Shown here: positions 62-32,743 of the stretch, piece after piece
Layout: each line of letters opens with the position of its first letter
Numbering within the stretch: position 1 is the stretch's first letter
Source: Chloroflexota bacterium
Lineage (GTDB): Bacteria > Chloroflexota > Limnocylindria > Limnocylindrales > CSP1-4
Assembly: GCA_003171255.1 (NCBI GenBank)
Contig: PMYK01000030.1
Coordinates: forward strand, 1 to 36,004
DNA: 36,004 nt
Reading direction: 5' to 3'
Translations under genes and position numbers: made by a program
Notes under the pieces: generated by a model
Told to the model about the DNA's origin: nothing
What the model saw: only the letters and a program-made list of their open reading frames with translations
Databases searched by the model: none

Positions 62-3000
62 CTACTCCGCCGGCCGAACCCTCCCGGCGGCCGCCGCCCG
101 CTTGTCCGGTGCCACGATCTCGATGGCCACCGGCGCCGGGGCGTGGTGAAGGTGCCCGGTGGACTCGGCGAACGTGACCGACGAGAGCGGCACGAGCGGC
201 TCTCCGCGCAGGACGCGGGCCAGGTACTCGCCGGTCGACGAGCCCGACACCTTCGCGACCTGCTCGGGCGTACCCTCGGCGATGACGTAGCCGCCGCGAT
301 CGCCGCCCTCCGGGCCGAGATCCACGATCCAGTCCGCGGTCTTGACCACGTCGAGGTTGTGCTCGATGACGATCACCGTGTTGCCCGTGTCCACGAGCCG
401 GTGCAGGACCTGGAGCAGCTTCTCCACGTCCGCCATGTGCAGGCCCGTGGTGGGCTCGTCGAGGACGTAGACAGTGCGACCCGTGGCCCGCTTCGACAGC
501 TCCGTGGCGAGCTTGACGCGCTGTGCCTCCCCGCCGGAGAGCGTCGTGGCCGGCTGGCCGAGATGGACGTAGCCGAGGCCCACGTCGAAGAGCGTCCGCA
601 GCTTGGCCCGCACACTCGGCACCGGGGCGAAGAACTCGAGGGCCTCCTCGATTGTCATCTCGAGCACGTCGGCGATCGATCGACCTTTGTAGTGGATCTC
701 CAGGGCCTCGCGGTTGTAGCGCTTGCCCTTGCAGACCTCGCACGGAACGTAGACGTCCGGCAGGAACTGCATCTCGATCTTGAGGATGCCGTCGCCCTTG
801 CAATGCTCGCAGCGGCCGCCCTTGACGTTGAAGCTGAAACGGCCGGGCTTGTAGCCACGCACCCGGGCCTCCTGCGTGCCGGCGAATAGCTCCCGGATCG
901 GGGCGAACAGACCCGTGTAAGTAGCAGGATTGGACCGCGGCGTCCGCCCTATCGGACTCTGGTCGATGTCGATGACCTTGTCGATCGCGCTGAGGCCCTC
1001 CAGCGCGTCATGGGCGCCGGGCTTGTCGCGGGCACCGTTGAGCTCGTGCGCGAGAGCCCGGTACAGGATGTCCGAGACGAGCGTGCTCTTGCCCGAGCCC
1101 GAGACCCCCGTCACGGCCACGAACCGGCCCAGGGGGAAGGCCACGTCCAGGTTCTTGAGGTTGTGCTCGCGGGCGCCGCGGACCACGAGCGAGAGGCCGC
1201 TGCCGGCTCGACGTGTGGCCGGAATCGCGATCTGCAGCTCACCGCGCAGATAGGCCCCAGTGATGGAGCGTGGCTCGGCCAGGACTGCCTCGAGCGGCCC
1301 CGAGGCGATGATCTCGCCGCCGTGCTCCCCCGCCCCGGGTCCGATGTCGATGACCCAGTCGGCCGTGCGGATCGTCTCCTCGTCGTGCTCGACGACCAGG
1401 ACCGTGTTGCCGAGGTCGCGCAGCCGCGTGAGCGTGGCGATCAGCTTGGCGTTGTCGCGCTGGTGCAACCCGATCGACGGCTCGTCGAGGATGTACAGCA
1501 CGCCCATCAGGCTCGACCCGATCTGCGTCGCCAGTCGGATGCGCTGGGCCTCGCCGCCGGACAGCGTCTGGCTGGTTCGATCGAGGGTGAGGTAGTCGAG
1601 CCCGACGTCGAGCAGGAATCCGAGCCTCGACGAAATCTCCTTGAGGAGCTGTCGGGCGATCGTGTTCTCGCGTTCGGTCAGCCGCTCCGGCAGAACGCCG
1701 ACGAATTCGCAGGCGGCCGTGATTGACAGCGTCGAGACGTCCCAGATGTTCCGACCATCGACGGTGACGGCGAGGATCTCCGGCTTGAGCCGCTTGCCCT
1801 CGCATTCCGGGCAAGGCCGGGCGACCATGTAGCGCTCCAGCTCGGACTTGACGAACTCCGACTCGGTCTCGCGGAAGCGGCGCTCGAGGTTGGGCACGAT
1901 GCCCTCGAACGTGGCGCCGTAGGTGTTCTCGCCGCGTTCGTGGCGGTAGCCGATGACGACCCGCTCGGCCCGTCCCGAGAACAGGATGTAGTCCAGCGCC
2001 TCGGGCGGGAGGTCCTTGATGGGGGCGTTGTAGTCCCAGCCGTGCTCTCGGCATACGGCTTCGATGATCTTGCCGTGCCAGGAGTTCTCCATCGGCATGC
2101 GAGCCCAGGGTACGAGAGCGCCGCCGGCCAGCGACAGGTTCTTGAACGGAACCACACGCTCCGGGTCGATCTCGAGGCGGCTGCCGATGCCGGTGCAGCT
2201 CGGGCAGGCGCCGTGGGGCGAGTTGAAGCTGAAGCTGCGCGGCTCGAGCTCGTCCACGGTGGTGCCGTCGTATGGGCAGCTATAGCGCTCGCTGTAGCGG
2301 CGTTCATCGAACTCCGGCGCCTCGCCGTCGCGCGGAGCCGGGGCGATCAGGACGACGCCCTCGCCGAGTCGCAACGCCGTCTCGACCGAGTCAGCAAGCC
2401 GCGCGGACTCGGGCCGGGCGGTGTCGACATTCGCTCCGTCGGTGTCTGGCATGGTCGCCGTCGCCTCGGATGCGCCGGCCGGTTCGGTCGTCTCAGGCGC
2501 GGTCGCCGCACCTTCGCCGGCTTCACCGTGCCGGACCACGAACCGGTCGACGATGACCTCGATCGTGTGGCGCTTGTACTTGTCGAGCCCGCGCGTCTCC
2601 GAGAGGTCCATCTGCTCGCCGTCGACTCGAACGCGCGCGAAGCCCTGACGGCGGATCTGGTCGAAGACGCGGTCGCCTTCCGTCTTGCGGTCCTTGATGA
2701 CCGGGCCGAGGACCATGAGCCGCGTCCCCTCGGGCAGCTCGTAGATCTGGTCGACGATCTGCTGCACGCTCTGGCGCTCGATCTCGCGGCCGCACGTGGG
2801 GCAGTGCGGATGGCCGATGCGCGCGAACAGCAACCGCAGGTGGTCGTAGATCTCGGTGACCGTGCCCACGGTCGACCGCGGGTTGCGGCTGGCGCCCTTC
2901 TGGTCGATCGAGATGGCCGGGCTCAGCCCATCGATCTGGTCGACGTCCGGCTTCTGCATCTCGCCCAGGAACTGGCGGGCGTACGCCGACAGGCTCTCGA

Positions 3001-3166
3001 CATAGCGTCGCTGCCCCTCGGCATAGATCGTGTCGAACGCGAGGCTGCTCTTCCCCGACCCGGAAAGCCCCGTGATGACCACCAGCCGATCGCGCGGCAT
3101 GGCTACGCTTACATTCTTGAGGTTGTGTTCGCGTGCTCCGCGAACGACGAGCTGTTCCTGCGGCAT
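62..3166 (-). CDS. uvrA: excinuclease ABC subunit A (UvrA)
   Basis: UvrA is the damage-recognition ATPase of nucleotide excision repair; a UvrA dimer loads UvrB onto damaged DNA. The 1034-residue product has two ABC modules. The first Walker A is GLSGSGKSS at residues 33-41, the second is GVSGSGKST, and both signature motifs (LSGGEAQR) and Walker B/DEP motifs are present. The C-terminal zinc module (CEHCKGDG to CEVCKGKR) is intact. In the first zinc module the usual C-x2-C pair reads CPYD, so one ligand is missing; a similar change occurs in actinobacterial UvrA as far as I recall. The protein is longer than the usual ~940-970 residues because of a Pro/Glu/Ala/Thr-rich insert at about residues 216-274 and an extended C-terminus. 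The ATG start lies 8 bases after a good -10 hexamer and has no Shine-Dalgarno sequence, so the mRNA may be leaderless. An SOS-like box lies upstream. Confidence 0.97.
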
Positions 3167-3174
3167 AGGCCGCT

Positions 3175-3210
3175 ATTGTAGGCCAACCCGCCGAAACAGA
3201 ACAGACGTTC
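3175..3210 (-). promoter_or_regulatory. uvrA promoter with LexA-like SOS box
   Basis: On the minus strand a -10 hexamer TACAAT (3175-3180) is preceded by 17 bases and then the palindrome GAACGTCTGTTC (3199-3210 on the plus strand as GAACAGACGTTC). GAAC-N4-GTTC is the known LexA operator core of Bacillus and actinobacteria. The box occupies the -35 position, as expected for a repressor site. The rest of the 294-base gap up to the carbonic anhydrase gene shows nothing I can name. Confidence 0.65.
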
Positions 3211-4449: not shown

Positions 4450-7400
4450 CTACGCCCGCAGCGCCTCGCGCGGCACGCGGACGATCAGGCGCACGATCGA
4501 GCCGTCGCGAGCGAAGACCGACTCGCTCGCCGAAAGGGACAACTCGGCTTCGGTGATCAGCTCGCTTGGCCGGGACGGTCGATCGACGACGACTGACGCC
4601 CGGTCGGACAGCTCGTAGCAGATCGGAGTCCCGCAGTAGGTGAAGGCGAGGCTGCCGGCCGGCAGATCCCACGACCGATCCTGGCCGCCCACGTCGACAT
4701 AGTCGAACCGGTACGGCGCGGCCTCGAACTCGGAGCGGTGCAGGAGCCTTGGCGCGAACCGCAGCTTGCCGGCTCGAACCTGAACGCCCAACTCGCCCCA
4801 GCGAGCCAGAACCTCTTCCTTGACGGCGCCCGTCATGCCCGGCTGCTGCGCGCCGCGGTGTCGCGGCGTGTGCGAGTACGGATCGCACGGGAACGCGCCC
4901 TGGACCTCGGCCGACTTGCGGAAGCCAAGGCCGTCGCGGACGTCGTCATAGGCTTCGGCCAGAGCCGCCGCGGCCTTCTCGTCGACCTGACCGGCCTCCG
5001 GGTCGATGGCCGCTTCGTAGCACTCCTGAACGGACAGCAGCAGCTTGGAGACCATATGCCAGTAGATGCTGCCGAGGCCCTCGAACATGAAGAACGTTCG
5101 GCTTCGACCGGTGAACTCGCGGTGGTGGAAGAGCCGCTCCCAGAGGGCCAGTGTGGCCTCGCGGGTCGGCCCCTCGACCTTCATCGAATCGAGCCGGCCG
5201 GCCAGATCGATGGCGTTCTTCAGGTCGGCCTGGAAGTGCCACTCGGCGTGGCTGTCGCGGACGAAGATTCGCGGGTCGTCGAGCGGCGGCTGGGTGGTGA
5301 TCGTGTTCCGGCTCAGGAACGACGGCAGATCCATGTCCGGGTAAAGCAGATAGCTGTGCTGGTCGGCCCGATACAGGTCGCCTACGCGAAGCGCACGCAG
5401 GACGGCCAGCTCCTCGTCGGGCGTCAGCAGCCCAGCACCGAGGACGGCGGCCTGGCCCTCGAGCATCTCGTACAGATGGTTGACGTGAGCCCGCTTGCCT
5501 TGGACGTGGAGCAGGTTGTAGCCGTGATACAGGCCGTCGCTGCGGCGGTTCACCTTGATGGCTCGGTCCAGGACCGGCAGGGCGCGGCCCACGAAGTCGC
5601 GCAGTGCGGTCATCGACACTGCCCGCCGGGTCCGCAACCCATCGGCGTAGACCGCGACACGATGCTCCTCGCCGGCTCGACCGGCCGCCACGAGGAACTC
5701 GTAGCGCGCGGCGTCGTCGAAAGTCTCGGGCGCGGCGCCGTAGATCGCCGTCAGCCGCTCCAGCAGGGCGGCGACCGGCTCGGACAGCTCGACGTTCTCC
5801 GAGCCCGCGAACAGCTCCTCGCAGAAGCGCAGGTAGCGCCGCGCGTGGTAGACCGTCACCATCGACAGTCCCCAGCCCACCAGGGCGTTGTTTGCGTCAT
5901 TCCATTCGGGGCGCTGGGTGTTCAGCCACGTTCCGCCATCGGGGACGAAGTTGGTCAGCTTGACCAGCAGCGGCACCAGCAGCTTCTCGGCGAGCGACAC
6001 GAGCAGGACGTCGCCCTTTGAGTCGGTAATGAGCTTGCCGTCCGCCCCAACTTCGGCCGCCGCAGCCATGAGCTTGCCGTGCGCCGGACGGTCGAAGGCG
6101 ATCGTGCTGTGCGGCTCGGCCAGCATGGCGTCCAGTCCGGCGATCCGGTAGGGCACGTTGGCGTAGGCGTACTCGCGCCTGTTGAGCCACGACGAGAGCA
6201 CTCCCGGGTGAAGCCGCTCCTCGATCTCGAGCAGCCGCAACAGATAGATGATCTGGTGGTCGCCCCAGTAGCCGGAATGACTCCACGGATCGGTCGGATC
6301 GGGCACTTCCCAGTCGACGCCGCCCTGGCGGCTGATCCGGTAGGGGTTGTAGCCGTCGGCGGTCGACGAGTTCAGGAAGACCGCGACCATCTGCTCGAGG
6401 TAGTCCGGGAAGCTCTGCGCGAGCGTCTCCCAGTTCTGGAAGATGTCACGCCAGTTGCCCTGATAGCCGTAGATCGGCTCGCCGTTCTCGCCGCGGAGAT
6501 GGATGGAGAAGTGGTTCCAGGGCCGGCTCGGATCGCCATGGCGCCGGCTATACATCAGCGGCAGGTAGGTGCCGCAAACCCGCTTGAGCTGGGGATCGCC
6601 GTTGGCGTCCACGGCGGCACGGAGCGTCTCGAGGGACATCTTCTCCGGCAATGCTGCCAGCCAGCTCTCGACCCGGGCGTGCAGCCGGGTGTTCTGGGCC
6701 TTCAAGAAGGTGTCGAGATCCCGGCGCGGGAAGCTGTAGGAATCGCGGAAGGTGCCACCGCGCATGCAGTTGAAGAGCACGCTCCCGAAATGGTGGACGG
6801 TGGCGGCTTCGTCGGCCGTCTCCTGCAGGCCATCGGCGGCGGCGATCAGCTTGCGCACGCCGTCGCGATCGGCCGCAATGGCGGCCCGAAGCTCGCGTTC
6901 GAGGAGGTCGGGGCTGGCAAGTCGATCGCGCAGCTTGATGAGCTGGGCGTGGTCGAGGGCGGTGTCGGCGACGGTGAACCACTCATGGCTCGCACCTTCG
7001 GCGAGTTCGACGCGGTCGGCCGCGAGGTACGACCCGTATTCCCCTCGGATCTCGGTCTCGAACGGAATCTCATCGCCCGCCCCGAACGCCGCGACGCGCC
7101 GATCCGACAGGCAGACCCGAGGATGACCATGACCGACCGACCAGGCGCAGGTCGCCCGGAGCGACTCGTAGGGTAGGGGCCGATCCGCCAACGCCGCGTT
7201 CATCGTGTAGATCGCGAGCGGGACGTCGGGTAGGACCTCGTGGCGCATGTAGCCAACGGCCAGATAGCTGATGCTCGAGTACGCCTCCTGGCCAACGCCG
7301 GCCGGCAGGAGCATCCGCAAGCCGTCGAGATAGTCCACCTGCACCGACCCCGAGCCGATGTTTTCGAGCACGGCATGCCGTACGAGGCCGAACTCCGCGC

Positions 7401-7830
7401 ACGTGCTCAGGCTCCAGGTGAACCGCAGGCCCAGTTCGTCGTTGACTTCCTCGAAGATCACGTTCGTACCGAGGACGTGCTTATAGAGGTTGCGGGTGAT
7501 CGACGGCGCATGGGTTTCCATGCGCCACGGTTCCCAGAGCGTCGGGCCCGAACCGCCACGGCTGACGCGGAACGTGCTGAACGAACCGGCTCCATCGGGA
7601 TGGCTGAGCAACTTGTCGACGGTCTCGTACGGGAACATGGCGCCATCGGGATCTACGCGACCTGCGGTGAAAGGCGAGTTGCTGCCGACGAAGAGCCAGG
7701 CGTCGCTGTCGCTGACGATGGTCATGAAGAACGGCTCGAGTCGGTCGACGTCGCGGATGCACGCGTACCGCTGCCCCGCCAGGGTGACGAACTCGTGCCG
7801 GGCCGGTGCCTGCGCGTGCCTCTGAGCCAA
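4450..7830 (-). CDS. large alpha-toroid carbohydrate-active enzyme candidate
   Basis: This 1126-residue protein has no signal peptide and is probably cytoplasmic. The N-terminal ~330 residues are beta-rich and aromatic (for example a GSNSPFTAGR stretch and LWEPWRMET), like the beta-sandwich that precedes the catalytic (alpha/alpha)6 barrel in GH94, GH36/63 and related enzymes. The central part is helical with conserved-looking acidic/aromatic patches: NWRDIFQNWE, STADGYNPYRI, DWEVPDP and GYWGDHQIIYLL (E508 and D524 by this start). I cannot assign a CAZy family. The frame is open to 8031, but upstream codons overlap the GH116 gene. I chose TTG at 7828-7830 because GAGG lies 8 bases before it; the start is uncertain. 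It is the last sugar gene, 71 bases after the GH116 gene, so hydrolysis or phosphorolysis of the same substrate is likely. Confidence 0.75.
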   Translation of the reverse strand: MAQRHAQAPARHEFVTLAGQRYACIRDVDRLEPFFMTIVSDSDAWLFVGSNSPFTAGRVDPDGAMFPYETVDKLLSHPDGAGSFSTFRVSRGGSGPTLWEPWRMETHAPSITRNLYKHVLGTNVIFEEVNDELGLRFTWSLSTCAEFGLVRHAVLENIGSGSVQVDYLDGLRMLLPAGVGQEAYSSISYLAVGYMRHEVLPDVPLAIYTMNAALADRPLPYESLRATCAWSVGHGHPRVCLSDRRVAAFGAGDEIPFETEIRGEYGSYLAADRVELAEGASHEWFTVADTALDHAQLIKLRDRLASPDLLERELRAAIAADRDGVRKLIAAADGLQETADEAATVHHFGSVLFNCMRGGTFRDSYSFPRRDLDTFLKAQNTRLHARVESWLAALPEKMSLETLRAAVDANGDPQLKRVCGTYLPLMYSRRHGDPSRPWNHFSIHLRGENGEPIYGYQGNWRDIFQNWETLAQSFPDYLEQMVAVFLNSSTADGYNPYRISRQGGVDWEVPDPTDPWSHSGYWGDHQIIYLLRLLEIEERLHPGVLSSWLNRREYAYANVPYRIAGLDAMLAEPHSTIAFDRPAHGKLMAAAAEVGADGKLITDSKGDVLLVSLAEKLLVPLLVKLTNFVPDGGTWLNTQRPEWNDANNALVGWGLSMVTVYHARRYLRFCEELFAGSENVELSEPVAALLERLTAIYGAAPETFDDAARYEFLVAAGRAGEEHRVAVYADGLRTRRAVSMTALRDFVGRALPVLDRAIKVNRRSDGLYHGYNLLHVQGKRAHVNHLYEMLEGQAAVLGAGLLTPDEELAVLRALRVGDLYRADQHSYLLYPDMDLPSFLSRNTITTQPPLDDPRIFVRDSHAEWHFQADLKNAIDLAGRLDSMKVEGPTREATLALWERLFHHREFTGRSRTFFMFEGLGSIYWHMVSKLLLSVQECYEAAIDPEAGQVDEKAAAALAEAYDDVRDGLGFRKSAEVQGAFPCDPYSHTPRHRGAQQPGMTGAVKEEVLARWGELGVQVRAGKLRFAPRLLHRSEFEAAPYRFDYVDVGGQDRSWDLPAGSLAFTYCGTPICYELSDRASVVVDRPSRPSELITEAELSLSASESVFARDGSIVRLIVRVPREALRA

Positions 7831-7901
7831 GACTTCTACCTCACGCTCTCGGTTGTCGGGCGTACCAGTGGCCGCCGAGGGGCGGCGGTCGTCAGCGGTC
7901 G

Positions 7902-10325
7902 CTAGGTGGCCGTCCTGCTGGCCCCCTGCTGACGAAGCGCATGTTCGATTGCCCAGATCGCCAGCGGCCGCAGGTACATCGCCGCTCGATAGTTGCCGTT
8001 TTGCAGGTACGCTTCCGGCGTCCGGAACCACAGGCCTCGGCCATAGGTTACGGCGAATGCGCCGTGGGCGGTACGCCAGCCTTCATCGACCAGGCCGCGA
8101 CCGATCATGAAGGCCGCCAGTCCATATGTAGTCCCGATCCAGCTTTCGGCCGACTGTTCGGACGACTGGTCGATCGAGCCGTCCGGGCACATCCCGTTGA
8201 CCGCGCCCATGTCGCCGCCGCCGAACCCTAGAACGTTCATTTCGTAGACCGTCCGCAGGGCCGTCAGCACGCGCTCAGGCGCAACGAGATCGCCGAGGCC
8301 GGTCGCGTCCGCGTACCACTGGCCGGCCAGCTGATCAGCCATGACGGAATCCGACGATGCCTCGCCGCTGGTGTCATAGCGGTAGCATCGGCCGTTCCAG
8401 AGCTTCTCCTCGAACGCCACGCTGCCGCGCTCGTGGATCTTTCGGAAACGGGCCACGGCCGCGGCGTCCCCGACGATCTCTCCCAACCGGATCGTGGCGC
8501 GGAGGGCGGCCAGCCAGAGCGCGCCGCTGTAGGCGCTCGGTCCGAGCATGTTCCATGCGTCGTAGGTTTGGTCGGGCTGCCCGTCGTGCTCGGGCAGCCC
8601 GTCGCCGTCCCTGTCGAATCGACCGAGGTAGTCCATCGCCTGCACGACGGCCGGCCACGTCTCGCGCGCGAGGAGTGGCGCCGGCGCCAGAAGCACGTCA
8701 CGCCAGACCTGGAGGACGAACTTGCTGTTCAGGTCCTTCCAGATGTTGATGTCACGCCAGTGGTAGATGTTGGGCCGCAGGAAGGGATCCCCGTGGGGCC
8801 CGCCGAGGTCATGCGGCATCGCACCGCGCACCTTCCACGGGGCCTTTGTGTCCTTCCATCCGGTCTGGACAATCTCTGGGTCGTCCAGATCGACAGTCGC
8901 CGCGAAGTCCCGGGCGACGCCAATCTCCAGCTCTGGCCACAGCAAAAGAAGTGCCCACGAAGCGTAGAAGTTGACGTCGAGGGTGTTGTAGCAGGCGTAG
9001 TCGTAGCACTCGAGGACGGCGAAGTGGCCCAGCGCGTCGTCGGCGGCGCCGGGCTCTCCTGGCGCGGCTGGCTCTCCTGGCGCGGCTGGCGCGGCGGGCG
9101 CCGGAAGGACCGCGCTTCTCCGCGCCGGGTCCTCCATGTTGAACGGCTCGCCTTCGGTCCAGACCGTGCCGCCGTCCACGAGGTAGTACAGCTCGTTGAT
9201 CAGCGCGCTCTTGTACCAGTCGGGTCGAGTGGCATCGGCGAGGATCGGCCCCTGCCAGGCGTCGATCGCCGCGGACCAGTCCTCGCGCTTCGCCAGGGCC
9301 TCGGCACCGATGGCCCAGGCATTCATCCCGCCATGGCCGAAGAACCGCGTATAGCGCTTGTACCAGCACGTCCCGGAGCCGAACTCGACGACGGGCAAAT
9401 CCCAGACGAGGGCGAACGAAACGCGCCTCGTCTCGCCAGGGGCGAGCTCGACCGTAACGGCAATGGCCGCCCCGATGGCTTCGCCCGGTAGGCTGGGCCG
9501 GCCGTCGACCACGTTGTCAAGCTTGCCGTCGGCCGCAAAGTCCGCCCACACATCCGACCCGTCAGCGGCCAGGAAGCGATCGCAGGTCGTCACCTGGACG
9601 CCCGGCTCCTCGCTCGCCATCAGGGCAAGACTGCCGTTCCAGGGCGCATCGGGCAGATCGGAGGGCCCCTGGAGCACGACCCCGGTCAGGCCGTCCATTC
9701 GCACCGAAGCGTTTCGATGCCCGCCCCGCTTGTCCTGCTGCCGATCGCGACCGATGTCGTTCAGCCAGCTGAACATCAGTCCAACCGTCACCGCATCCGC
9801 GCTCGGGTTCTCGATCTCCCACTCGAAGATGCCCACTGGGTAGCTGCTCTCCCGGTGGTTGCCGGGAATGACCGGGCTGAACTGTCGCTGCAACAGCCGC
9901 ACGGGAAGCTCAGACCAGTCGTACTCGAACCACGCATACGGGAATAGACCGTGGTACGTGCCGGCGCCGGCCGGCAGGTCCCAGTTCCAGCTCCGCAGCG
10001 CCTCGGGCCGCGTGGTCGAGAGAACGTGGGCGGACTTGGCCCCGCCCCTGGCCACGAACACCGAGAACTGGTCGGCCGGGATGGTCTCGAAGCGGTGTCG
10101 TCCAACGTCGAGGTGCCATCGGGCGAAGTCCCCGCGATGGGTTCGCCCGATGCTCCCCGCTCCCATGCCGCCGAGCGGCACGCCACCCCACGGGCCGTCA
10201 TCGACGAGCGGCGTGAAGCCGCCCGACACGGCCCTTTCGGGGCCGTCGTAAGGGACCCCGATCGGCCGCCGCCACGCCTGGGAAGCCGGGCGCGGCAGTG
10301 CCTCAGGGTCCCTTGTCAACGTCAT
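7902..10325 (-). CDS. GH116 family beta-glycosidase (GBA2-like)
   Basis: The 807-residue protein matches the bile-acid/non-lysosomal glucosylceramidase family GH116, whose members hydrolyse beta-glucosides or beta-xylosides with retention. An N-terminal beta-sandwich (start of domain GGVPLGGMGAGSIGR) precedes an (alpha/alpha)6 barrel. The nucleophile motif is ECYDYACYNTLDV, with Glu439; the acid/base motif is PDQTYDAW, with Asp589. These sit almost where Glu441 and Asp593 sit in the characterised Thermoanaerobacterium enzyme. ESWIGTTYGLA near the C-terminus is also typical. There is no signal peptide, so it should act on imported substrate. A Pro/Ala-rich linker made of an 18-base duplication lies just before the nucleophile. 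The ATG is 6 bases after the second malG, with only a weak ribosome site, so translation is probably coupled. Substrate unknown: beta-glucoside or beta-xyloside. Confidence 0.9.
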   Translation of the reverse strand: MTLTRDPEALPRPASQAWRRPIGVPYDGPERAVSGGFTPLVDDGPWGGVPLGGMGAGSIGRTHRGDFARWHLDVGRHRFETIPADQFSVFVARGGAKSAHVLSTTRPEALRSWNWDLPAGAGTYHGLFPYAWFEYDWSELPVRLLQRQFSPVIPGNHRESSYPVGIFEWEIENPSADAVTVGLMFSWLNDIGRDRQQDKRGGHRNASVRMDGLTGVVLQGPSDLPDAPWNGSLALMASEEPGVQVTTCDRFLAADGSDVWADFAADGKLDNVVDGRPSLPGEAIGAAIAVTVELAPGETRRVSFALVWDLPVVEFGSGTCWYKRYTRFFGHGGMNAWAIGAEALAKREDWSAAIDAWQGPILADATRPDWYKSALINELYYLVDGGTVWTEGEPFNMEDPARRSAVLPAPAAPAAPGEPAAPGEPGAADDALGHFAVLECYDYACYNTLDVNFYASWALLLLWPELEIGVARDFAATVDLDDPEIVQTGWKDTKAPWKVRGAMPHDLGGPHGDPFLRPNIYHWRDINIWKDLNSKFVLQVWRDVLLAPAPLLARETWPAVVQAMDYLGRFDRDGDGLPEHDGQPDQTYDAWNMLGPSAYSGALWLAALRATIRLGEIVGDAAAVARFRKIHERGSVAFEEKLWNGRCYRYDTSGEASSDSVMADQLAGQWYADATGLGDLVAPERVLTALRTVYEMNVLGFGGGDMGAVNGMCPDGSIDQSSEQSAESWIGTTYGLAAFMIGRGLVDEGWRTAHGAFAVTYGRGLWFRTPEAYLQNGNYRAAMYLRPLAIWAIEHALRQQGASRTAT
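9052..9087. repeat. 18-bp in-frame tandem duplication in GH116 gene
   Basis: Two exact copies of an 18-base unit (9052-9069 and 9070-9087), followed by a partial third. It codes for a Pro-Gly-Glu-Pro-Ala-Ala type linker inserted ahead of the catalytic nucleophile segment. Confidence 0.85.
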
Positions 10326-10331
10326 AGGTGG

Positions 10332-11486
10332 CTACTTCTCGACGCCGGAGATGACCACGCCTCGCATGAACACTCGCTGGGCTACGAAGAAGACGGCCAC
10401 GGGCAGGATCATCGCCATCAGCGAACCCGCCTGGGTCAGAGTGCCGTTGTTCGCGTTGCCGTAGGTGGCGCTGAAAGCCTGCAGGCCGACCGTCATGGTG
10501 GCGAGTTCGGGATGGGCGCTCAGATACACCAGCGGCCCAAAGAAATCGTTCCACGTGAAGAAGAAGTGGAACAGCGAGACGGCGATGATGGCCGGCCAGG
10601 CCTGGGGCACGATGACCGACCACAGGATCCGCAGCGGGTTCGCGCCGTCGAGTTGAGCGGCCTCGTCCAACTCGCGTGGCAGGGTCAGGAAGTACTGCCT
10701 CAAGAGGAAGACGTTGTAGGCGTTTGCAAAGTACGCCGGCACTATCAGTGGTAACCACGTCCCGGTCCAGCCCATGGCCCTGAAGGCGATGTACTGCGGG
10801 ATCAGGAGGACCTGGAACGGCAGCATGATGGTCATGATCAGGATCATGAACATGCCGTTCTTGTACGGGATCCTGAATCTCGCGAAGCCGAACGCGACTA
10901 TCACAGCCGAGCCGACCGCGCCGATCGTTCCGACAATGGCGACGATCAGTGTGTTCCGCAACAGCATCGGGAAGTCGAGGACTTTCAGGACGTCGACGAA
11001 GTTGTCCCACTTCGGGGCCAGAGACCACACCGAACTGAGGCCCCGCCAATTGCCCTGCCACATCACCTCATTCCCGGTCTTAGGGTCGATGAACGTGCTC
11101 TGGACCCGTCCGGGCTTCTCAAGGGCCAGGTTCTCGACAGTCCCATCGGTCATCGGGACCTGATACAGGATGTACGTCGTGCCGTCGGGAGCCGTGTACT
11201 TCTCTGGCGCGGCCGGCCACAGCGGTGCGTTGATCGCGACGATCTGCGTACTGTCCTTGAACGACGTGAGGACCATGTAGAGCAGCGGCAGCAGGAAGAT
11301 CAACGCCATCGAGGCGGTGAACATCGTCAGGCCGAGCTTGGAAGCACCGAACTTGACCGTGCGTGCGCGAGTCGACCTCTTCTTGTATGCCCTCTTGGGG
11401 GCAGCGGTCGTACCGTCGCCAGTGATCTCGAAAAGCTGCTTGGCGGGGCCCTCAATCGCGGGGTCCGGCGCCATGTTGTCGGTCAT
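10332..11486 (-). CDS. sugar ABC transporter permease, MalG type (copy 1)
   Basis: This is the inner-membrane permease of a CUT1 sugar importer (384 residues). About six membrane helices are visible, and the EAA loop that docks the ATPase reads EAAQLDGANPLRILWSVIVP. Between helix 1 and helix 2 lies an extra ~85-residue extracytoplasmic loop (PLWPAAPEKYTAPDG to WDNF), which makes the protein longer than the usual ~280 residues. It is closely similar to copy 2 (11806-12894), with long identical stretches in protein and DNA. The start is ATG at 11484-11486, with GGAGG six bases upstream; an upstream in-frame ATG at 11516 has no such site. The start overlaps the TGA of a decayed malF stub, exactly as copy 2 overlaps the intact malF. 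Its N-terminus is about 22 residues longer and more polar than copy 2. Confidence 0.93.
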   Translation of the reverse strand: MTDNMAPDPAIEGPAKQLFEITGDGTTAAPKRAYKKRSTRARTVKFGASKLGLTMFTASMALIFLLPLLYMVLTSFKDSTQIVAINAPLWPAAPEKYTAPDGTTYILYQVPMTDGTVENLALEKPGRVQSTFIDPKTGNEVMWQGNWRGLSSVWSLAPKWDNFVDVLKVLDFPMLLRNTLIVAIVGTIGAVGSAVIVAFGFARFRIPYKNGMFMILIMTIMLPFQVLLIPQYIAFRAMGWTGTWLPLIVPAYFANAYNVFLLRQYFLTLPRELDEAAQLDGANPLRILWSVIVPQAWPAIIAVSLFHFFFTWNDFFGPLVYLSAHPELATMTVGLQAFSATYGNANNGTLTQAGSLMAMILPVAVFFVAQRVFMRGVVISGVEK

Positions 11487-11634
11487 CGGACACCTCCGGC
11501 GAGAAGCAAGCAGCATTCCGACCTGCGGGAGAACACGGGTTCGGACATCACGACGGCGAACATCATGAGCCGGGCGAGCGCCGAGGCATTACCCATCTTG
11601 GTGTTGGCCCAGCCTTCCTTGTGTACGGATTCGT
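11483..11634 (-). pseudogene. decayed 3' stub of a duplicated malF-type permease
   Basis: The last 45 codons of this open stretch align without gaps to the last 45 residues of the intact malF (12891-13856). Shared blocks include KEGW, MG-x-ASALA, LMM and the terminal AGG-x-R. About half the residues still match; hydrophobic residues have been replaced by Arg, Glu, Ser and Cys, which ruins the last membrane helix. The GGAGGT ribosome site and the ATGA stop/start overlap with the next gene are retained. Similarity fades upstream of about 11634. It is the footprint of a tandem duplication of the malF end plus malG. Confidence 0.8.
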
Positions 11635-21508: not shown

Positions 21509-23938
21509 CTACTTTCGGCGCCGCCGGCCGGGGGGCCGGCTTCCCGTCCGCTTGATCACGTTCGGGGTGACGGTATGGTCCCACGTCGGCCGGTCCAGCC
21601 ACTTGGCCGACCAGCCGTCGTCCTCGTGCTCGTCCCGAATGCCGGGCAGCCAGTCCGATGCCGTTGCCGCGGCCGCCAGATCGTCCCCACCTGGCTCTTC
21701 GCCGGCGGGCAGCACCCGGACCTCGGTGACTTCGAGCTCGGGACCTTCGCGCTCCCCGCCCGAGCCGCCGGCCACTCCCCTGCCCCGTCGTGACGCGCCC
21801 TGCGCGGCCTGCCGGATCGGCTTGATGGTTCGGCCGGCTCGAGCCGGGGCCTGGAAGGCTCCCCCGACGGCCGCAGCACCCGTGCCTCCGCCGCCGGCCT
21901 TCGCCGCTCGTTCGGCCGCCCGGGCCACCGCGGCGGAAGCGTCCTCGTCGAGGACCCGCAATCGAATCTCCTGGATCTCGTCCCGCAAGGCCGCGGCGCG
22001 CTCGAACTCAAGATCGCGAGCGGCCTGGCGCATCTCCGCCTCCATCTGACCGACGAGCTTCTCGACCTGGCCCTTGGCCATCTCCGTGAACGCGCGCTCC
22101 TGTCCCGGGGCCGTGGCGTAGGTCCCGTGAGCCTCCGCAACCGCGCGCAGTCGATCGTTGATGTCGCGGATGCCCTTGACGATCGTCACCGGCTCGATGC
22201 CGTGATCCTGGTTGTAGCGCTCCTGGATCGCCCGCCGCCGATTGGTCTCGCCGATCGCGATCTTCATCGAGTCGGTCATTCTGTCGGCGTACATCACCAC
22301 TTCGCCGCCGATGTTCCGGGCCGCCCGGCCGATCATCTGGACGAGCGACCAGGCGCTCCGCAGGAATCCCTCCTTGTCGGCGTCCAGGATGGCGACGAGG
22401 GTGACCTCCGGGAGATCGATCCCCTCGCGCAACAGGTTGATGCCGACGATCACGTCGTATATGCCGAGCCGAAGATCCCGAAGTATCTGGACCCGTTCGA
22501 GGGTGTCGACCTCGGAATGGAGGTACTGCACCTTGACTCCGAGCTCATGCAGATAGTCGGCCAGATCCTCGGCCATCTTCTTTGTGAGCGTCGTGACAAT
22601 CGAACGTTCACCGCGTTCGACTCGGCCTCGTATGAGTTCGAGCAGATCGTCGATCTGACCTTCGGTCGGCTTGACAGTTATGCGTGGATCGACGACGCCA
22701 GTGGGACGTATGAGTTGTTCGACGATTTGCTGACTTCGTTCCAGTTCATACGGTCCGGGCGTTGCGCTCATGTACACGACTTGATTGATGCTGGCTTCGA
22801 ACTCATCGAATGTCAGCGGGCGATTGTCGAGCGCTGAAGGTAGTCTGAACCCGAAGTCGACCAGGATCTCTTTTCTGGTTCGGTCGTTCTTGTACATGCC
22901 GACCACCTGAGGGATCGACATGTGGCTCTCGTCTACCACGAGCAACCAGTCCGGCGGGAAGTAGTCGAGCAGGGTCCACGGCCGGCTGCCGGCTTCGCGT
23001 CCGGAGAGGTGGCGCGAGTAGTTCTCGATGCCGGTGCAGTAGCCGAGCTCGCGCATCATCTCGAGGTCGAAGGTCGTGCGTTGCCGAAGCCTGGCGCCCT
23101 CGAGGTCGCGACCCTGAGCCTCGAGCTCGCCGACCCTGACCTCCATCTCCTCGTCGATGGCCTTGACTGCGGCCATCAGCTTGTCTTTCGGGGTGACGTA
23201 GTGGGTGGCCGGGTAGACGTTGACGTCCTTGCGCTCCGCCAGCAGCTCGCCCGTGAGCGGGTCCAGCTCGGTGATGCGCTCCACCTCGTCGCCGAAGAAC
23301 TCCACGCGAACGAGGCGATCCTCCGCGGCCGGGATCAACTCCAGGGTGTCGCCCCGAACGCGGAAGCGGGCCCGCGACAGGGACTGGTCGTTGCGCTGGT
23401 ACTGGAGATCAACGAGGTGGCGCAGCACGGCGTCGCGGCGATACTGCCCGCCGACTCGAAGCCGCAGGATCGTGGCCCCGTAGTCGACCGGGGCGCCGAG
23501 GCCGTAGATGCAGCTCACGCTGGCGACGATGATCACGTCGCGCCGCTCGAAGAGAGCCTTTGTGGCCGCATGGCGGAGCTTGTCGATCTCGTCGTTGCGG
23601 CTCGAGTCCTTCTCTATGTACGTATCGCTGCGGGGCAGGTACGCCTCGGGCTGGTAGTAGTCGAAGTAGCTGACGAAGTACTCGACGGCATTGTCCGGAA
23701 AGAACTCCCGGAACTCCGCGTACAGCTGGGCGGCGAGCGTCTTGTTATGAGCCAGGACCAGGGTCGGCTTCTGGTGCCGCTCAATGGTCCAGGCGATGCT
23801 GGCCGTCTTGCCCGTACCGGTGGCGCCGAGCAGGGTCTGATGGCGCAGGCCCCTGGCAAGGCCTTCGCTCAGTTGCTCGATCGCGCGAGGCTGGTCGCCG
23901 GTGGGCTTGAAGTCGGCAACGAGCCGGAAGTCGGGCAC
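21509..23938 (-). CDS. uvrB: excinuclease ABC subunit B (UvrB)
   Basis: UvrB is the helicase-like subunit that verifies damage and recruits UvrC. Walker A is GATGTGKT near residue 40; the DNA-clamping beta-hairpin with [16 protein letters not shown] and the [15 protein letters not shown] block follow. The helicase C-terminal motifs and QMIGRAARN are complete, and a UVR domain lies at about residues 619-658. At 809 residues it is some 140 longer than usual. The extra tail after the UVR domain is Gly/Ala-rich, then ends in an ordered-looking acidic/aromatic block ([15 protein letters not shown] to KRTGSRP) and Arg-rich end. The start is GTG at 23936-23938, with GAGG five bases upstream. An SOS-like promoter lies upstream. 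Confidence 0.97.
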
Positions 23939-23965: not shown

Positions 23966-24001
23966 AGTATATCGCTGCGCGGTGTAATAGCACAGACGTT
24001 C
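23966..24001 (-). promoter_or_regulatory. uvrB promoter with LexA-like SOS box
   Basis: On the minus strand the -10 hexamer TATACT (23966-23971) is preceded by exactly 17 bases and then GAACGTCTGTGC (23990-24001), one base away from the uvrA box GAACGTCTGTTC. Box, spacing and -10 position are the same as in front of uvrA, so both genes are probably under one repressor. Confidence 0.6.
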
Positions 24002-24954: not shown

Positions 24955-27137
24955 GGGGCCGCCTCCTCCATTTCGAGCCACGACTCCTCGGCAGCGGCGA
25001 GCGCCTCGTCCACCGTCGCAAGATCGCCGCTGACGCGACGCAGCTCCACGAAGTTGCCGTGTACGCCGGGGTCGAGCAACGCTGACTCCAGTCGATGCTT
25101 GCGGGCGTTCAGGACGGCGAGTTCCTCCTCGATCTGGGCCTTGCGGCGACGGTAGGCGTCCTTCGACAGCTTCTCTGGCCTGGGGCGCGTCGAGACGGAG
25201 CCGGTGGAAACGGCCAAACCGGCGGATCGGGCCTGGTCGGCCGGGCCGGAGACGGCGAAGTGGGCAGAGTCGGCCGACACGGAGCCGTCGGAAGCATCTC
25301 TGGTGGCGGGGGCGCCGAGTCGGCCTCCACGACCGCTGCTCCCCGGTGAAGAAGCCACGGCACGCTTCGTTCGCGCCGCGGCTTTGGGACTCGAAGTCCC
25401 GACCGCGCCCCCCGGCCGACGCGCGCCCGTCTCCCGCGACTGTCCGCCATGAAGCCGCACCGCCTCCCTTTCGGCGGCAGCCCTCACCGTCCAGCCGTCC
25501 GCCACTGCCGCCCGCCAGGCGCGATAGCCGCCGTCGAACGGCACGGCCAGGCCGTCGTCGACGACCCACAGCGAATTGCAGACCTTCTCGAGAAGCCGGC
25601 GGTCGTGGCTGACGACCAGGAGCGTGGCGTCCGTGGTGGCCATGAACGCCTCGAGGGCTTCACGGGCGGGGATGTCGAGGTGGTTCGTCGGTTCGTCGAG
25701 GAGGAGCAGGTTGGCCGGCAGCAGGAAGAGCAGCGCCAACTCGAGGCGTGAGCGCTCGCCGCCGGAAAGGGCGGTGACTTCCTTGAATACGTCGTCGCCG
25801 CGAAACAGGAAGCGGGCCAGGTGGCTCCGCGCCGCCGCGGCGGTGAGTGGCATCTCGTCGAGCAGCGCGTCGAGGACCGTGGCGCCGGGGATCGGCGCGT
25901 CGCGAAGCTGGGCCAAGTAGCTGAGCTGGACGTTGCGGCCGATGTCGAGCGCGCCATCGAGCGGCGGCAGGTCGCCGCCGATCGTTCGCAGCAGCGTCGT
26001 CTTGCCGGCGCCGTTCGGGCCCACGATGCCGATGCGATCGCCGCGGCGCAGCTCCAGCCACGGAACGCGGGCGACCGCGGTCTGGCTCGAGGCCGCGGTC
26101 GGGGCCGCGGTCGGGGCCGCGGTCGGGGCCAGATACCCCACGACCAATCCCTCGGCCCGGACCACCGATTCGTACGATCGAGCGGGCGCTCCGCCCGCCA
26201 GGGCTTCGGTCGGCAGCTTGAGCCGGGCGTCGGACCGGCGCTTCTCGAGCGGCTGCAGGGCCTCGAGTCGGGCTTCGTGCTCGTGCATCTTCGAGTACTT
26301 GCGCTGGTGGCGATACAGCTGCACGAGTTCGCGCTCGCGGGTGATCTGCCCGGCGCGGTCCTCGGCGTCCTCGTCGGCGCGAATATCGCGCTCCTCGCGC
26401 TGGCGGGCATAGGCGGCGTAGCCGCCACGGAACGGCGTCAAACGTCGATCTCGCAGCTCCCAAACCCGAGTCACCGTCGCGTCGAGGAAAGCCCGGTCAT
26501 GCGAAGCCACGATCAGGCTGCCGTGGCGTCTGCCGAGGTGCTCCTCGAGCCACTCGAGCGCACCCAGGTCGAGGTGGTTCGTGGGCTCGTCGAGGAGGAG
26601 CAGCTCGGGGTCGGACAGCAGCAGACGGGCCAGCGCCGCGCGGGTCTGCTCACCGCCGGAGAGATTCGTTGGCGAGCGATCCCAGTCGGCGCGCTCGAAG
26701 CCCAGCCCGGAGAGCGCCTCCTCGACGCGCTGATCGAGCGAGTAGCCGTCCTTCACCGCGAACTCGTGCTGGAGACTCTCGTATTCGGGCTCGGTGACAC
26801 GACCCTCATGCTCGATCTGCCGAAGCGTTCGCTCCAGCTCCTCGAGCCGCCGGGCGCCCGACCGTACCGCCAGCCGCAAGCTCGGCGACTCGATGAAGGC
26901 GGAATCGACGTGCGCCTCCTGCGAAAGCATCGCGATGCTCAGCGCCCGTTTTCGATGGACCGCACCCTCATCCGGCTCGTCGACGCCGGCCACGAGCCGC
27001 AGCAGAGTCGTCTTGCCGGCGCCGTTGGGGCCGACGAGGCCGATTCGATCGCCGGCCGCGATGGCCGCATCGACGTGGTCGAGGATGACGAAGTCGCCTA
27101 CTTCGCGGTGAACGCCTTGGAGTCGAACGATGGACAT
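24951..27137 (-). CDS. ABC-F family ATPase (Uup-like)
   Basis: ABC-F proteins have no membrane domain and act on ribosomes or on DNA-linked structures. The 728-residue protein has two nucleotide-binding domains. Walker A is GPNGAGKTT at 36-44 and again in the second half. The signatures are NLSGGEQ and ALSGGER, and the Walker B blocks are LLLLDEPTNHLD. A charged helical inter-domain linker (REERDIRADEDAEDRAGQI onward) follows the first domain. A ~95-residue Ser/Gly/Ala-rich segment at about residues 556-652 separates the second domain from a C-terminal coiled coil (KLSKDAYRRRKAQIEEELAVL), as in Uup. A 12-base repeat encodes APT-type repeats before the second domain. The ATG shares one base with the mutM stop (TGATG), and the end overlaps coaE, so all three are coupled. 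Confidence 0.92.
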   Translation of the reverse strand: MSIVRLQGVHREVGDFVILDHVDAAIAAGDRIGLVGPNGAGKTTLLRLVAGVDEPDEGAVHRKRALSIAMLSQEAHVDSAFIESPSLRLAVRSGARRLEELERTLRQIEHEGRVTEPEYESLQHEFAVKDGYSLDQRVEEALSGLGFERADWDRSPTNLSGGEQTRAALARLLLSDPELLLLDEPTNHLDLGALEWLEEHLGRRHGSLIVASHDRAFLDATVTRVWELRDRRLTPFRGGYAAYARQREERDIRADEDAEDRAGQITRERELVQLYRHQRKYSKMHEHEARLEALQPLEKRRSDARLKLPTEALAGGAPARSYESVVRAEGLVVGYLAPTAAPTAAPTAASSQTAVARVPWLELRRGDRIGIVGPNGAGKTTLLRTIGGDLPPLDGALDIGRNVQLSYLAQLRDAPIPGATVLDALLDEMPLTAAAARSHLARFLFRGDDVFKEVTALSGGERSRLELALLFLLPANLLLLDEPTNHLDIPAREALEAFMATTDATLLVVSHDRRLLEKVCNSLWVVDDGLAVPFDGGYRAWRAAVADGWTVRAAAEREAVRLHGGQSRETGARRPGGAVGTSSPKAAARTKRAVASSPGSSGRGGRLGAPATRDASDGSVSADSAHFAVSGPADQARSAGLAVSTGSVSTRPRPEKLSKDAYRRRKAQIEEELAVLNARKHRLESALLDPGVHGNFVELRRVSGDLATVDEALAAAEESWLEMEEAAP
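26091..26130. repeat. 12-bp in-frame tandem repeat in ABC-F gene
   Basis: The unit GGCCGCGGTCGG occurs three times plus four bases. It codes for an Ala-Pro-Thr-Ala repeat just before the second nucleotide-binding domain. The copies are exact, which suggests recent slippage. Confidence 0.85.
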
Positions 27138-28306
27138 CAGGCCGGCCCTCCCGCACGAGCTATGGCCCGCCTCGTCGCGGCTGCCTTGCGGGCGGCCGAC
27201 GTTCGGCGCTCCCGCTCAGCGGCATGTGCGGTGGCGCGTTCGCCGGCGCGCGCCTCTTCCCCTGAGGTCCGGCCGAGCACGCCCTCGCCGGACAGCTCGG
27301 TCCAGCGGGGTCCGCGGCTTTTTGGCTCGACCACCCGGACCGGCGCCCTCGCGGCGCGCTCGAGCAGCTGCGCCGCGGCAGACCGCTGGTCCGCCGGCAG
27401 TCGCTGGCACCACGAGCAGAAATGCGTCGCTCGGCCGCCGACGACGATCCGCTTGATCGGCCGGCCGCAGCGATCGCACGGTTCGCCGGCCCGCTGGTAG
27501 ACCTGGAGGTGCTCCTGCATCGAGCCGTCGCCTTCAGGCGCCGTGTAGTCGTCGACCGAACTGCCGCGCCGTTCGACGGCCTCGGTCAGAACCGCGCGTA
27601 AGGCCGCGTGGAGTCGACGCGCGTCGTCCGGCTTAAGGGTGTGGGCTTCGCGCAGCGGGTGGAGCCGCGCCCGCCAGAGAGATTCGTCGGCGTAGATGTT
27701 GCCCACCCCGGCGAGGAATTCCTGGTTCATCAGCAGCGTCTTGAGGCGGCCGCGACGGCGAGAAAGCAGCTCCGCAAAGCGCCTCCACGTAAGGTCATCT
27801 GCGAGCGGCTCGGCACCGGTCGCGAGAACGCCCACGGCCTCGCCTTCGATCGGCAGCCCGGTGGCGACGTCTCGGCGGTACAGCCCGATACGGCCGAACT
27901 TGCGAATGTCGCGGAACCGCAGCTCTCGAGCGTCCGACAGCGCCAGCACGGCGTGGACATGGCGATCCTGCCCGGTGCCGGCCGGCACGACGAAGAGCTG
28001 ACCTGTCATCTTGAGGTGGATCGTGAGAACGGCCGGTTCGGGGTCGGGCGGGGCCCCGGCCGGTCCGGGGTCGGGCGCGGCCCGGCGGTCGCCGAATCGA
28101 TCGCTCGGCCCGAGCCAGACCAGGAGCTGCTTGCCGCGTCGGCCCACACCTTCGATCTGGCGCCCTGCCACGGCCCGCACAAATTCGTCGGCGTCGTGGC
28201 TGCGGAGAGTCGGCGGCCAGTTGGAACTGGCGCCCACGATGCGCGCGCCCGTCACCAGGCGGCGCAGATCGCCGGCGATCGTCTCGACTTCGGGCAGTTC
28301 GGGCAT
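27137..28306 (-). CDS. mutM: formamidopyrimidine-DNA glycosylase (MutM/Fpg)
   Basis: Fpg removes 8-oxoguanine and ring-opened purines by a glycosylase/AP-lyase reaction in base excision repair. The mature N-terminus PELPEVET with catalytic Pro2/Glu3 is present, as is the conserved Lys in GKQLLVWL. NQEFLAGVGNIYADE marks the helix-two-turn-helix, and the zinc finger is C-x2-C-x16-C-x2-C near residues 277-297. The 389 residues exceed the usual ~270-290. One insert at about residues 66-96 (Pro/Asp/Ala-rich) comes from a 27-base tandem duplication, and an ~85-residue Arg/Ala/Glu-rich tail follows the zinc finger. The start is fixed at ATG 28304-28306 by the obligatory N-terminal Pro; the open frame to 28468 is not used. 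No good ribosome site is visible. Confidence 0.95.
   Translation of the reverse strand: MPELPEVETIAGDLRRLVTGARIVGASSNWPPTLRSHDADEFVRAVAGRQIEGVGRRGKQLLVWLGPSDRFGDRRAAPDPGPAGAPPDPEPAVLTIHLKMTGQLFVVPAGTGQDRHVHAVLALSDARELRFRDIRKFGRIGLYRRDVATGLPIEGEAVGVLATGAEPLADDLTWRRFAELLSRRRGRLKTLLMNQEFLAGVGNIYADESLWRARLHPLREAHTLKPDDARRLHAALRAVLTEAVERRGSSVDDYTAPEGDGSMQEHLQVYQRAGEPCDRCGRPIKRIVVGGRATHFCSWCQRLPADQRSAAAQLLERAARAPVRVVEPKSRGPRWTELSGEGVLGRTSGEEARAGERATAHAAERERRTSAARKAAATRRAIARAGGPA
28031..28077. repeat. 27-bp period duplication in mutM insert
   Basis: Two 20-base copies (28031-28050 and 28058-28077) differ at one base and are offset by 27 bases, that is nine codons. They encode the repeated PDP-rich insert in the N-terminal domain of Fpg. 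Confidence 0.8.
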
Positions 28307-28391
28307 ACCTAGAGGGTAACGGGGCGGCGGTTGTGATGCGTCGGGCGGCTGAGCCCGCCTGCCGATGAGCCGAGCGGGCACCTGAGGGCGC

Positions 28392-29336
28392 CTACTCCTG
28401 AGCCAGCGCCGGCGCCACTTGCTGCTGAAGCTCGAGGCAGACCTGCCGGGCCAACTCGACGAACGCAACCTGTCCCGGCGAGCGGTATCGATCGCGGTGC
28501 CAGGCGAGGGTCAGCACCCGAGGCGGAACCTCCGTTGGGATTACCGCGCATTTGGGGTCGGTCTCGTCCACCGTCAGGCGCGGCACCAGGGCCACGCCGA
28601 TTCCAGCCACCACCAGCGCCTGTACGGTGGTGTTGTCATCGGACCGGAAGACCCATTGTGGATTGCCGCCAGAGGCGCGCAGGTAGTCCTCGGCCGCGCC
28701 GGTGCTCCGACAGTGGCGGAAGCCGATGAGCGGCAGATTTGCGATCTCAGCCGCGGTAGCCGGCCGGTCCAACTCCGTCAGCGGCGACGTGGCGGGCACG
28801 ACCAGGACGTACGGGTCGCGGAATAGCTCGACTGCCTCGAAGGGTCCGTCCGATAACGGGTAGACGGCGAACGAGAGATCCAGCTCGCCCGACTCGACGA
28901 GGTGCAGCAGACCATCGTCGCTGTTGGTCTCCGTGAGATGGACTTCGACGTTGGGCCAGAGCTTTGGGAAGATACCCAGGGTCTGAGGCAGCACCCGAGC
29001 CCCAACGCTCTGGTACGTGCCGACGCGGAGACGACCGGTCGCCCCTTCGGAGAAGGCCTGTATGTCGGCCCTCGCCGCCTGCATCCGAGCCACGATGGCA
29101 TCTGCGTGACGAAGCAGCAGCACACCCGCCTCGGTGACCGCGACGGTCCGCCGGCCGCGCGACCGCTCGAGCAGTCGAACGCCCAGTATCGACTCGAGCG
29201 CAGCCACGTGCTGGCTCACCGCTGACTGTGTGTAGTCGAGCGATATCGCCGCTTCGTGGAAGGAACCGGTTTCCGCGACGGCTCGGAAGCTCAACAGATG
29301 CCTGAATTCGAGGTCCGCCAAATGATCAGCAGTCAT
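28392..29336 (-). CDS. LysR-family transcriptional regulator
   Basis: A 314-residue LysR-type regulator. The N-terminal winged helix-turn-helix reads FRHLLSFRAVAETGSFHEAA to SAVSQHVAALE, followed by the linker helix and a two-lobed effector domain (GRLRVGTYQSVGARVLP onward). Length is normal. The ATG at 29334-29336 has no clear Shine-Dalgarno sequence. LysR proteins usually control the divergent neighbour; here that neighbour is a 34-codon membrane peptide, and the AT-richer gap holds a T-N11-A inverted repeat that also lies within the likely promoter spacer of lysR itself, suggesting autorepression. Effector unknown. Confidence 0.95.
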   Translation of the reverse strand: MTADHLADLEFRHLLSFRAVAETGSFHEAAISLDYTQSAVSQHVAALESILGVRLLERSRGRRTVAVTEAGVLLLRHADAIVARMQAARADIQAFSEGATGRLRVGTYQSVGARVLPQTLGIFPKLWPNVEVHLTETNSDDGLLHLVESGELDLSFAVYPLSDGPFEAVELFRDPYVLVVPATSPLTELDRPATAAEIANLPLIGFRHCRSTGAAEDYLRASGGNPQWVFRSDDNTTVQALVVAGIGVALVPRLTVDETDPKCAVIPTEVPPRVLTLAWHRDRYRSPGQVAFVELARQVCLELQQQVAPALAQE

Positions 29337-32521: not shown

Positions 32522-32743
32522 GCGGGCCTCGGTCGGTACGGCGCCGGCGATCGACAGCGGCCGGCCGAACAAGTTTACCCGGGGCGGGCGTAGGACCGGC
32601 CCAGCCCGCCCGTCAGTACGAGCGGGTCACGCCACCGAGCTCTGGCCAGGAAGACCAGGATCGGCGTGGTGAACAGAATCGAGCAGCCGGCCCAATCAGG
32701 CCGGGTCGCGGAATCAGGCTACCGGCATTCCCAGTCCGATGGG

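Follow-up and report, generated by a model that had tools for sequence, protein, structure and literature searches.

Operator-like sites upstream of uvrA and uvrB

We asked whether the two similar sequences that precede the excision repair genes uvrA and uvrB on a contig from an uncultured Chloroflexota bacterium could be operators of the SOS repressor LexA, and which other genes of the same genome and its relatives might share them. The window, i.e. the whole 36,004-nt stretch of DNA analysed here, contains the following features relevant to this question, with both operators given as predictions.

62-3166, minus strand: uvrA, excinuclease subunit A, ATG start (NCBIfam NF001503, 1501 bits)
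3175-3180, minus strand: uvrA -10 hexamer TACAAT, 17 bases after the 13-mer box and 8 bases before the ATG
3198-3210, minus strand: predicted LexA-type operator (SOS box) of uvrA, GAACGTCTGTTCT (from sequence and 14/14 genus loci)
21509-23938, minus strand: uvrB, excinuclease subunit B, GTG start (NCBIfam NF003673, 1037 bits)
23966-23971, minus strand: uvrB -10 hexamer TATACT, 17 bases after the 13-mer box and 27 bases before the GTG
23989-24001, minus strand: predicted LexA-type operator of uvrB with an imperfect right half-site, GAACGTCTGTGCT (from sequence; boxed in 14/15 genus loci)
27137-28468: mutM (Pfam)
29549-32572: polA (Pfam)

The preliminary description had assigned to the two genes similar boxes followed by -10 hexamers at the same 17-base spacing, with 13-mers differing at a single base, and all of this was borne out when the minus-strand sequence was read again. 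The exact GAACN4GTTC 12-mer at uvrA occupies positions 3199-3210. The uvrA -10 hexamer lies only 8 bases before the ATG, and the mRNA is therefore predicted to be leaderless or nearly so. It had also been claimed that polA and mutM lack the box, and indeed neither is preceded by an exact GAACN4GTTC, of which contig C6 has only two, at 3199-3210 and 11531-11542. The latter, followed 15 bases later by an ABC permease ORF (10332-11516, minus strand), is probably there by chance. Elsewhere in the window, an NCBIfam search identified a 1,3-beta-D-glucan phosphorylase of family GH149 (4450-8031, minus strand).

Conservation among relatives

The sites were compared with those in 18 genomes of the same genus and in 12 streamlined order-mates of 1.0-1.2 Mb. 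Footprint counts for the genus include only loci holding the gene start, at identity limits of 85% for uvrA and lexA, 80% for uvrB, 75% for ruvB and 70% for a small gene described below; these limits exclude the order-mates, which are given separately. The box precedes uvrA in 14 of 14 genus loci and uvrB in 14 of 15, and the lone unboxed uvrB locus (L149) has a seemingly disrupted sequence immediately before the match. The distance from box to -10 is constant in all 14 uvrA and all 14 boxed uvrB promoters, despite a mean pairwise identity of 56% and 49%, respectively, in the intervening spacers. The hexamer itself reads TACAAT in 13 and TATAAT in one of the 14 uvrA promoters, and TATACT in 13 and TATAAT in one of the 14 boxed uvrB promoters. 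The right half-site is GTTC at all 14 uvrA loci, while at uvrB it is GTGC in 11 and GTTC in three; two further uvrB-like promoters, obtained in a scan for the layout, carry GTGC (G008) and GTTC (G004). Conservation of the imperfect half-site suggests a lower affinity of LexA for the uvrB operator.

Among named sequences, uvrA is closest to homologues in a Candidatus Limnocylindrales MAG, at 78% identity, and in Chloroflexi MAGs. Eighteen of the 80 homologue loci, all from named contigs, were inspected. A box, or a box with one mismatch, is in place in six Chloroflexota loci (L046, L047, L048, L049, L051 and L053), with a spacing to the -10, as read from the sequence, of 17 bases in five and 11 bases in L053; it is absent from L052. 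In eleven more distant loci, a box is found 99 bases upstream in L069 and 93 bases upstream in L101, with none near the start in the others.

LexA and other boxed units

The genome from which the window was taken (2.56 Mb in 55 contigs) yielded a single match to a LexA DNA-binding query. This protein, encoded at C3:26441-27100, contains the LexA_DNA_bind (PF01726, 72.1 bits) and Peptidase_S24 (PF00717, 112.1 bits) domains, and could be aligned with solved LexA chains across the Ala-Gly cleavage bond, the serine of GDSM and the lysine of VTLK; we take the aligned Ser and Lys to be its catalytic residues. The same operator is found in its own promoter (C3:27121-27132), and the lexA box is present in 16 of 16 genus loci, in every one with TTGAC 5′ of the box. 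In view of these domains, the aligned residues and the operator in the lexA promoter, LexA as repressor is the simplest account, and we put at about 0.92 the probability that the uvrA and uvrB sites are LexA operators within an ordinary SOS response of the Bacillus type.

A box also lies upstream of ruvB, at C19:120816-120827 in the window's own genome and in 18 of 18 genus loci. On one strand of that genome, ruvB is succeeded by tgt, a short ORF and recA (C19:123405-124469), which has no box of its own directly upstream. The ruvB-tgt-recA arrangement is contiguous in nine of nine genomes, i.e. this one and all eight relatives examined, and in the eight relatives the box at ruvB is the single one, with no second box within the cluster. 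Apparently, recA is reached via ruvB-tgt from the ruvB operator, presumably by operon transcription.

The nine boxed loci of imuA type that were inspected all begin proteins of one family. In genome G006, the boxed unit starts with a RecA-fold protein, continues with an IMS-family protein and then a DNA polymerase III alpha protein, and is by domain content imuA-imuB-dnaE2. The imuA of the window's own genome is interrupted just past its start by the end of contig C55, and its first residues match those of G011. No exact box was found upstream of dinB (pol IV) in the own genome, and both a box of recA's own and a box at dinB were rejected, as neither was seen there; judging from gene content, the mutagenesis arm of the predicted regulon is imuA-imuB-dnaE2, not dinB.

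The preliminary description had predicted the operator of this lineage and a small SOS regulon. The former is upheld by the same operator at lexA of the same genome and at ruvB, together with genus-wide conservation, and the latter can be filled with uvrA, uvrB, lexA, ruvB-tgt-recA, imuA-imuB-dnaE2 and a small DUF6504-like gene as predicted members. The genome-wide check it suggested, for boxes at lexA, recA and dinB, finds one at lexA but none at dinB, and at recA only in the sense that the upstream ruvB is boxed.

Two other sites in this genome (designated G000) deserve separate mention. Some 200 bases ahead of ftsZ, an exact GAACN4GTTC (L165, G000:C34:44986-44997) forms part of a longer palindrome. 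It recurs in three relatives and raises a possible link of SOS to cell division; we treat ftsZ as a lead only and not as an SOS target, because the three relatives with the upstream site were found by matching the pattern. At G000:C34:79200-79232 (L167), the start of an ORF resembling a DNA-binding regulator has two GAACN4GTTC sites 21 bases apart.

Two promoter designs

The boxed promoters follow two designs. In all 16 lexA and all 19 small-gene promoters, the best match to the TTGACA -35 consensus (spacers of 15-19 bases) is 6/6, and the lexA promoter takes the form TTGACA-N17-TANNCT with the box within the spacer; at the small gene, TTGAC is likewise followed by the box, and the imuA promoters are similar. 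The pattern TTGAC-N1..7-GAACN4GTTC gave 44 matches in 19 genomes and one for the reversed control. The 37 genus matches were assigned by reading to lexA (10), the small gene (12), imuA-type genes (10) and others (5). The same pattern occurs with identical letters at G000:C50:23844-23864, inside a called ORF, and at G011:C47:20135-20155.

At 14 uvrA, 14 uvrB and 18 ruvB promoters, the best -35 match is 2-3 of 6, which is no better than in composition-matched random sequence, while the -10 hexamers are near consensus (TACAAT, TATACT and mostly TATGAT, respectively). Counted from the 12-mer, the box is 18 bases from the -10 at uvrA and uvrB and 7 bases at ruvB. The operator thus lies within the spacer where the promoter is -35-rich, and ahead of the -10 where it is -35-poor. 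The shared SOS layout originally proposed from uvrA and uvrB exists at both genes, but it is one of two designs in the genus and not a general one; similarly, the box does occupy the position of the -35, although there is no recognisable -35 for it to cover.

A small boxed gene

The small gene codes for 89 residues (C3:35064-35330 in the own genome; L262:1501-1767) and has two tandem boxes ahead of it in all 20 genus loci. Of 301 Chloroflexota genomes sampled, 30 were found to contain it, all of the same class. The DUF6504 profile (PF20114) weakly matched three of 19 members, with a best E of 0.083, and did not match the protein of the own genome; no match to it was found among solved structures. 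Further loci of the class, from several genera, mostly have two exact boxes; L391 has one, and in L400 the promoter-design box adjoins the assumed start, with no second box after it. Between the second box and the ATG, only TGCC, mostly as GTGCC, is common to all 16 leaders that were picked from 33 listed ones, representing several genera, to remove near-duplicates. A conserved hairpin in the leader was considered and rejected, as RNAalifold predicts no pair on these 16 leaders.

Among the streamlined order-mates, the box is kept at lexA in 8 of 8 loci (with a weak ninth match, L231, excluded) and both boxes are kept at the small gene in 10 of 10. No box or near-box was seen upstream of uvrB (12/12), uvrA (9/9 loci with start) or ruvB (11/11) in these genomes, in which start codons are less certain. 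The persistence of the double-boxed small gene behind TTGACA where uvrA, uvrB and ruvB are unboxed suggests that its product could be a core SOS effector of Limnocylindria. A wider reading that combines this role with two SOS promoter designs in the genus and with the uvrB half-site as a conserved affinity setting has, in our judgement, an even chance of being right.

Alternative explanations

Could two GAACN4GTKC matches simply happen to precede two repair genes? Counts by themselves leave room for such a coincidence. Loose matches (up to three mismatches) show no excess in the window, with 9 observed and 14.7 expected, and this statistic was discarded as support. Exact cores are common in the own genome, with 37 sites and 28 for the reversed pattern, a mild excess barely above the control; 28 of the 37 lie within ORFs called by a crude gene caller, and six of the nine outside belong to lexA (1), uvrA (1), ruvB (1), the imuA start (1) and the small gene (2), the inexact uvrB box being absent from this set. 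The layout pattern GAACN4GTKC-N17..19-TANNNT has two matches in the own genome, precisely uvrA and uvrB, although its reversed control, at about one match per genome, gives one there, and over 12 genus genomes the figures are 32 and 14. The signal at uvrA and uvrB stems from position and conservation and not from counting alone: the same box stands at the same distance in nearly every genus locus of both genes, and the same core recurs at lexA and ruvB, so that chance is already contradicted by the footprints and is scarcely credible.

Two regulatory alternatives accept the conservation and differ as to what it means. Mycobacteria use a PafBC-like regulator for some repair genes, and a LexA-independent damage activator of this kind (WYL family) might act at uvrA and uvrB with the box as its site; a fixed distance from box to -10 without a recognisable -35 is what an activator site would be expected to show. 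The PafBC-type motif, TTGTCRGTG-N8-TANNNT, is nevertheless found in none of the 28 uvrA and uvrB promoters, the box core is identical to that inside the lexA promoter, where the repressor position is clear, and the ruvB box lies at another distance, all of which makes an activator quite improbable. Somewhat less improbable, though still unlikely, is a LexA operator doubling as a promoter element, in which the right half would serve as a degenerate -35 and the change of GTTC to GTGC would trade affinity for promoter strength. It would fit the conservation of GTGC in 11 of 14 uvrB promoters, 13 of 14 of which score 3/6 against TTGACA, with GTGCTA at a 16-base spacer in three examples; such a score, however, is reached by 40% of random sequence of this composition, and uvrA, with GTTC throughout, scores 2 in 10 of 14.

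Proposed mechanism and comparison with known SOS systems

From the arrangement of sites we infer binding and repression by LexA, induction upon damage, operon transcription and a role for GTGC, for an SOS response that would operate as follows. In undamaged cells, a LexA dimer would occupy GAACN4GTTC 17 bases upstream of the uvrA and uvrB -10 hexamers, covering the place where sigma region 4 would contact the promoter and keeping RNA polymerase off; the repressed promoters would rely on a strong -10 without a recognisable -35. Upon DNA damage, RecA filaments would bring about LexA self-cleavage, and uvrA and uvrB would go up together with lexA, ruvB-tgt-recA, imuA-imuB-dnaE2 and the small DUF6504-like gene. 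At uvrB, the GTGC half-site, through lower affinity for LexA, may result in a higher basal level or in earlier induction.

In the genus 12-mer, the core letters of which are fixed by pattern-based site selection, position 5 is a purine and position 8 a pyrimidine, as in the Bacillus box. The system resembles those of Bacillus subtilis and Staphylococcus aureus in the GAACN4GTTC core and in targeting lexA, uvr and ruv genes, and differs from them in that recA is apparently reached via ruvB-tgt and not from an operator of its own, uvrA and uvrB each form a separate unit with a box, the uvrB half-site is GTGC, and a small DUF6504-like gene is a target. The LexA regulon of actinobacteria (mycobacteria) includes imuA'-imuB-dnaE2, and the likeness extends to the same core and to a LexA-type box before the imuA-imuB-dnaE2 cassette; here, in contrast, the host belongs to Chloroflexota, ImuA has a RecA fold, the promoter is of the TTGAC-box type and the DUF6504-like gene forms a unit by itself. 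In E. coli, LexA operators overlap core promoter elements of uvrA and uvrB, as do the sites described here, whereas the operator sequence differs, being here of the GAACN4GTTC type.

CGAACN4GTTCG is given as the LexA box of B. subtilis and S. aureus, and TACTG(TA)5CAGTA as the E. coli operator, in PMC9578287, and LexA motifs are described as varying widely in PMC8565304. The RegPrecise 3.0 paper reports a Chloroflexi collection of five genomes and counts over 25 groups with LexA (PMC3840689), so that this resource may include a LexA regulog from other Chloroflexi. A search of the literature on LexA in Chloroflexota, on the SOS response under Limnocylindr- and on DUF6504, with the RegPrecise Chloroflexi collection outside its scope, found no LexA operator description for the class. 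The box as such is the known Bacillus/Staphylococcus type, and its predicted use is extended here to a lineage for which this search found no published description.

For the biology of this uncultured class of Chloroflexota, these sites provide a predicted operator and a candidate gene list for the DNA damage response, and would add the class to the range of the Bacillus-type LexA box. The small DUF6504-like protein, as the putative target at which LexA-type operators are most persistently retained, may be the freshest lead.
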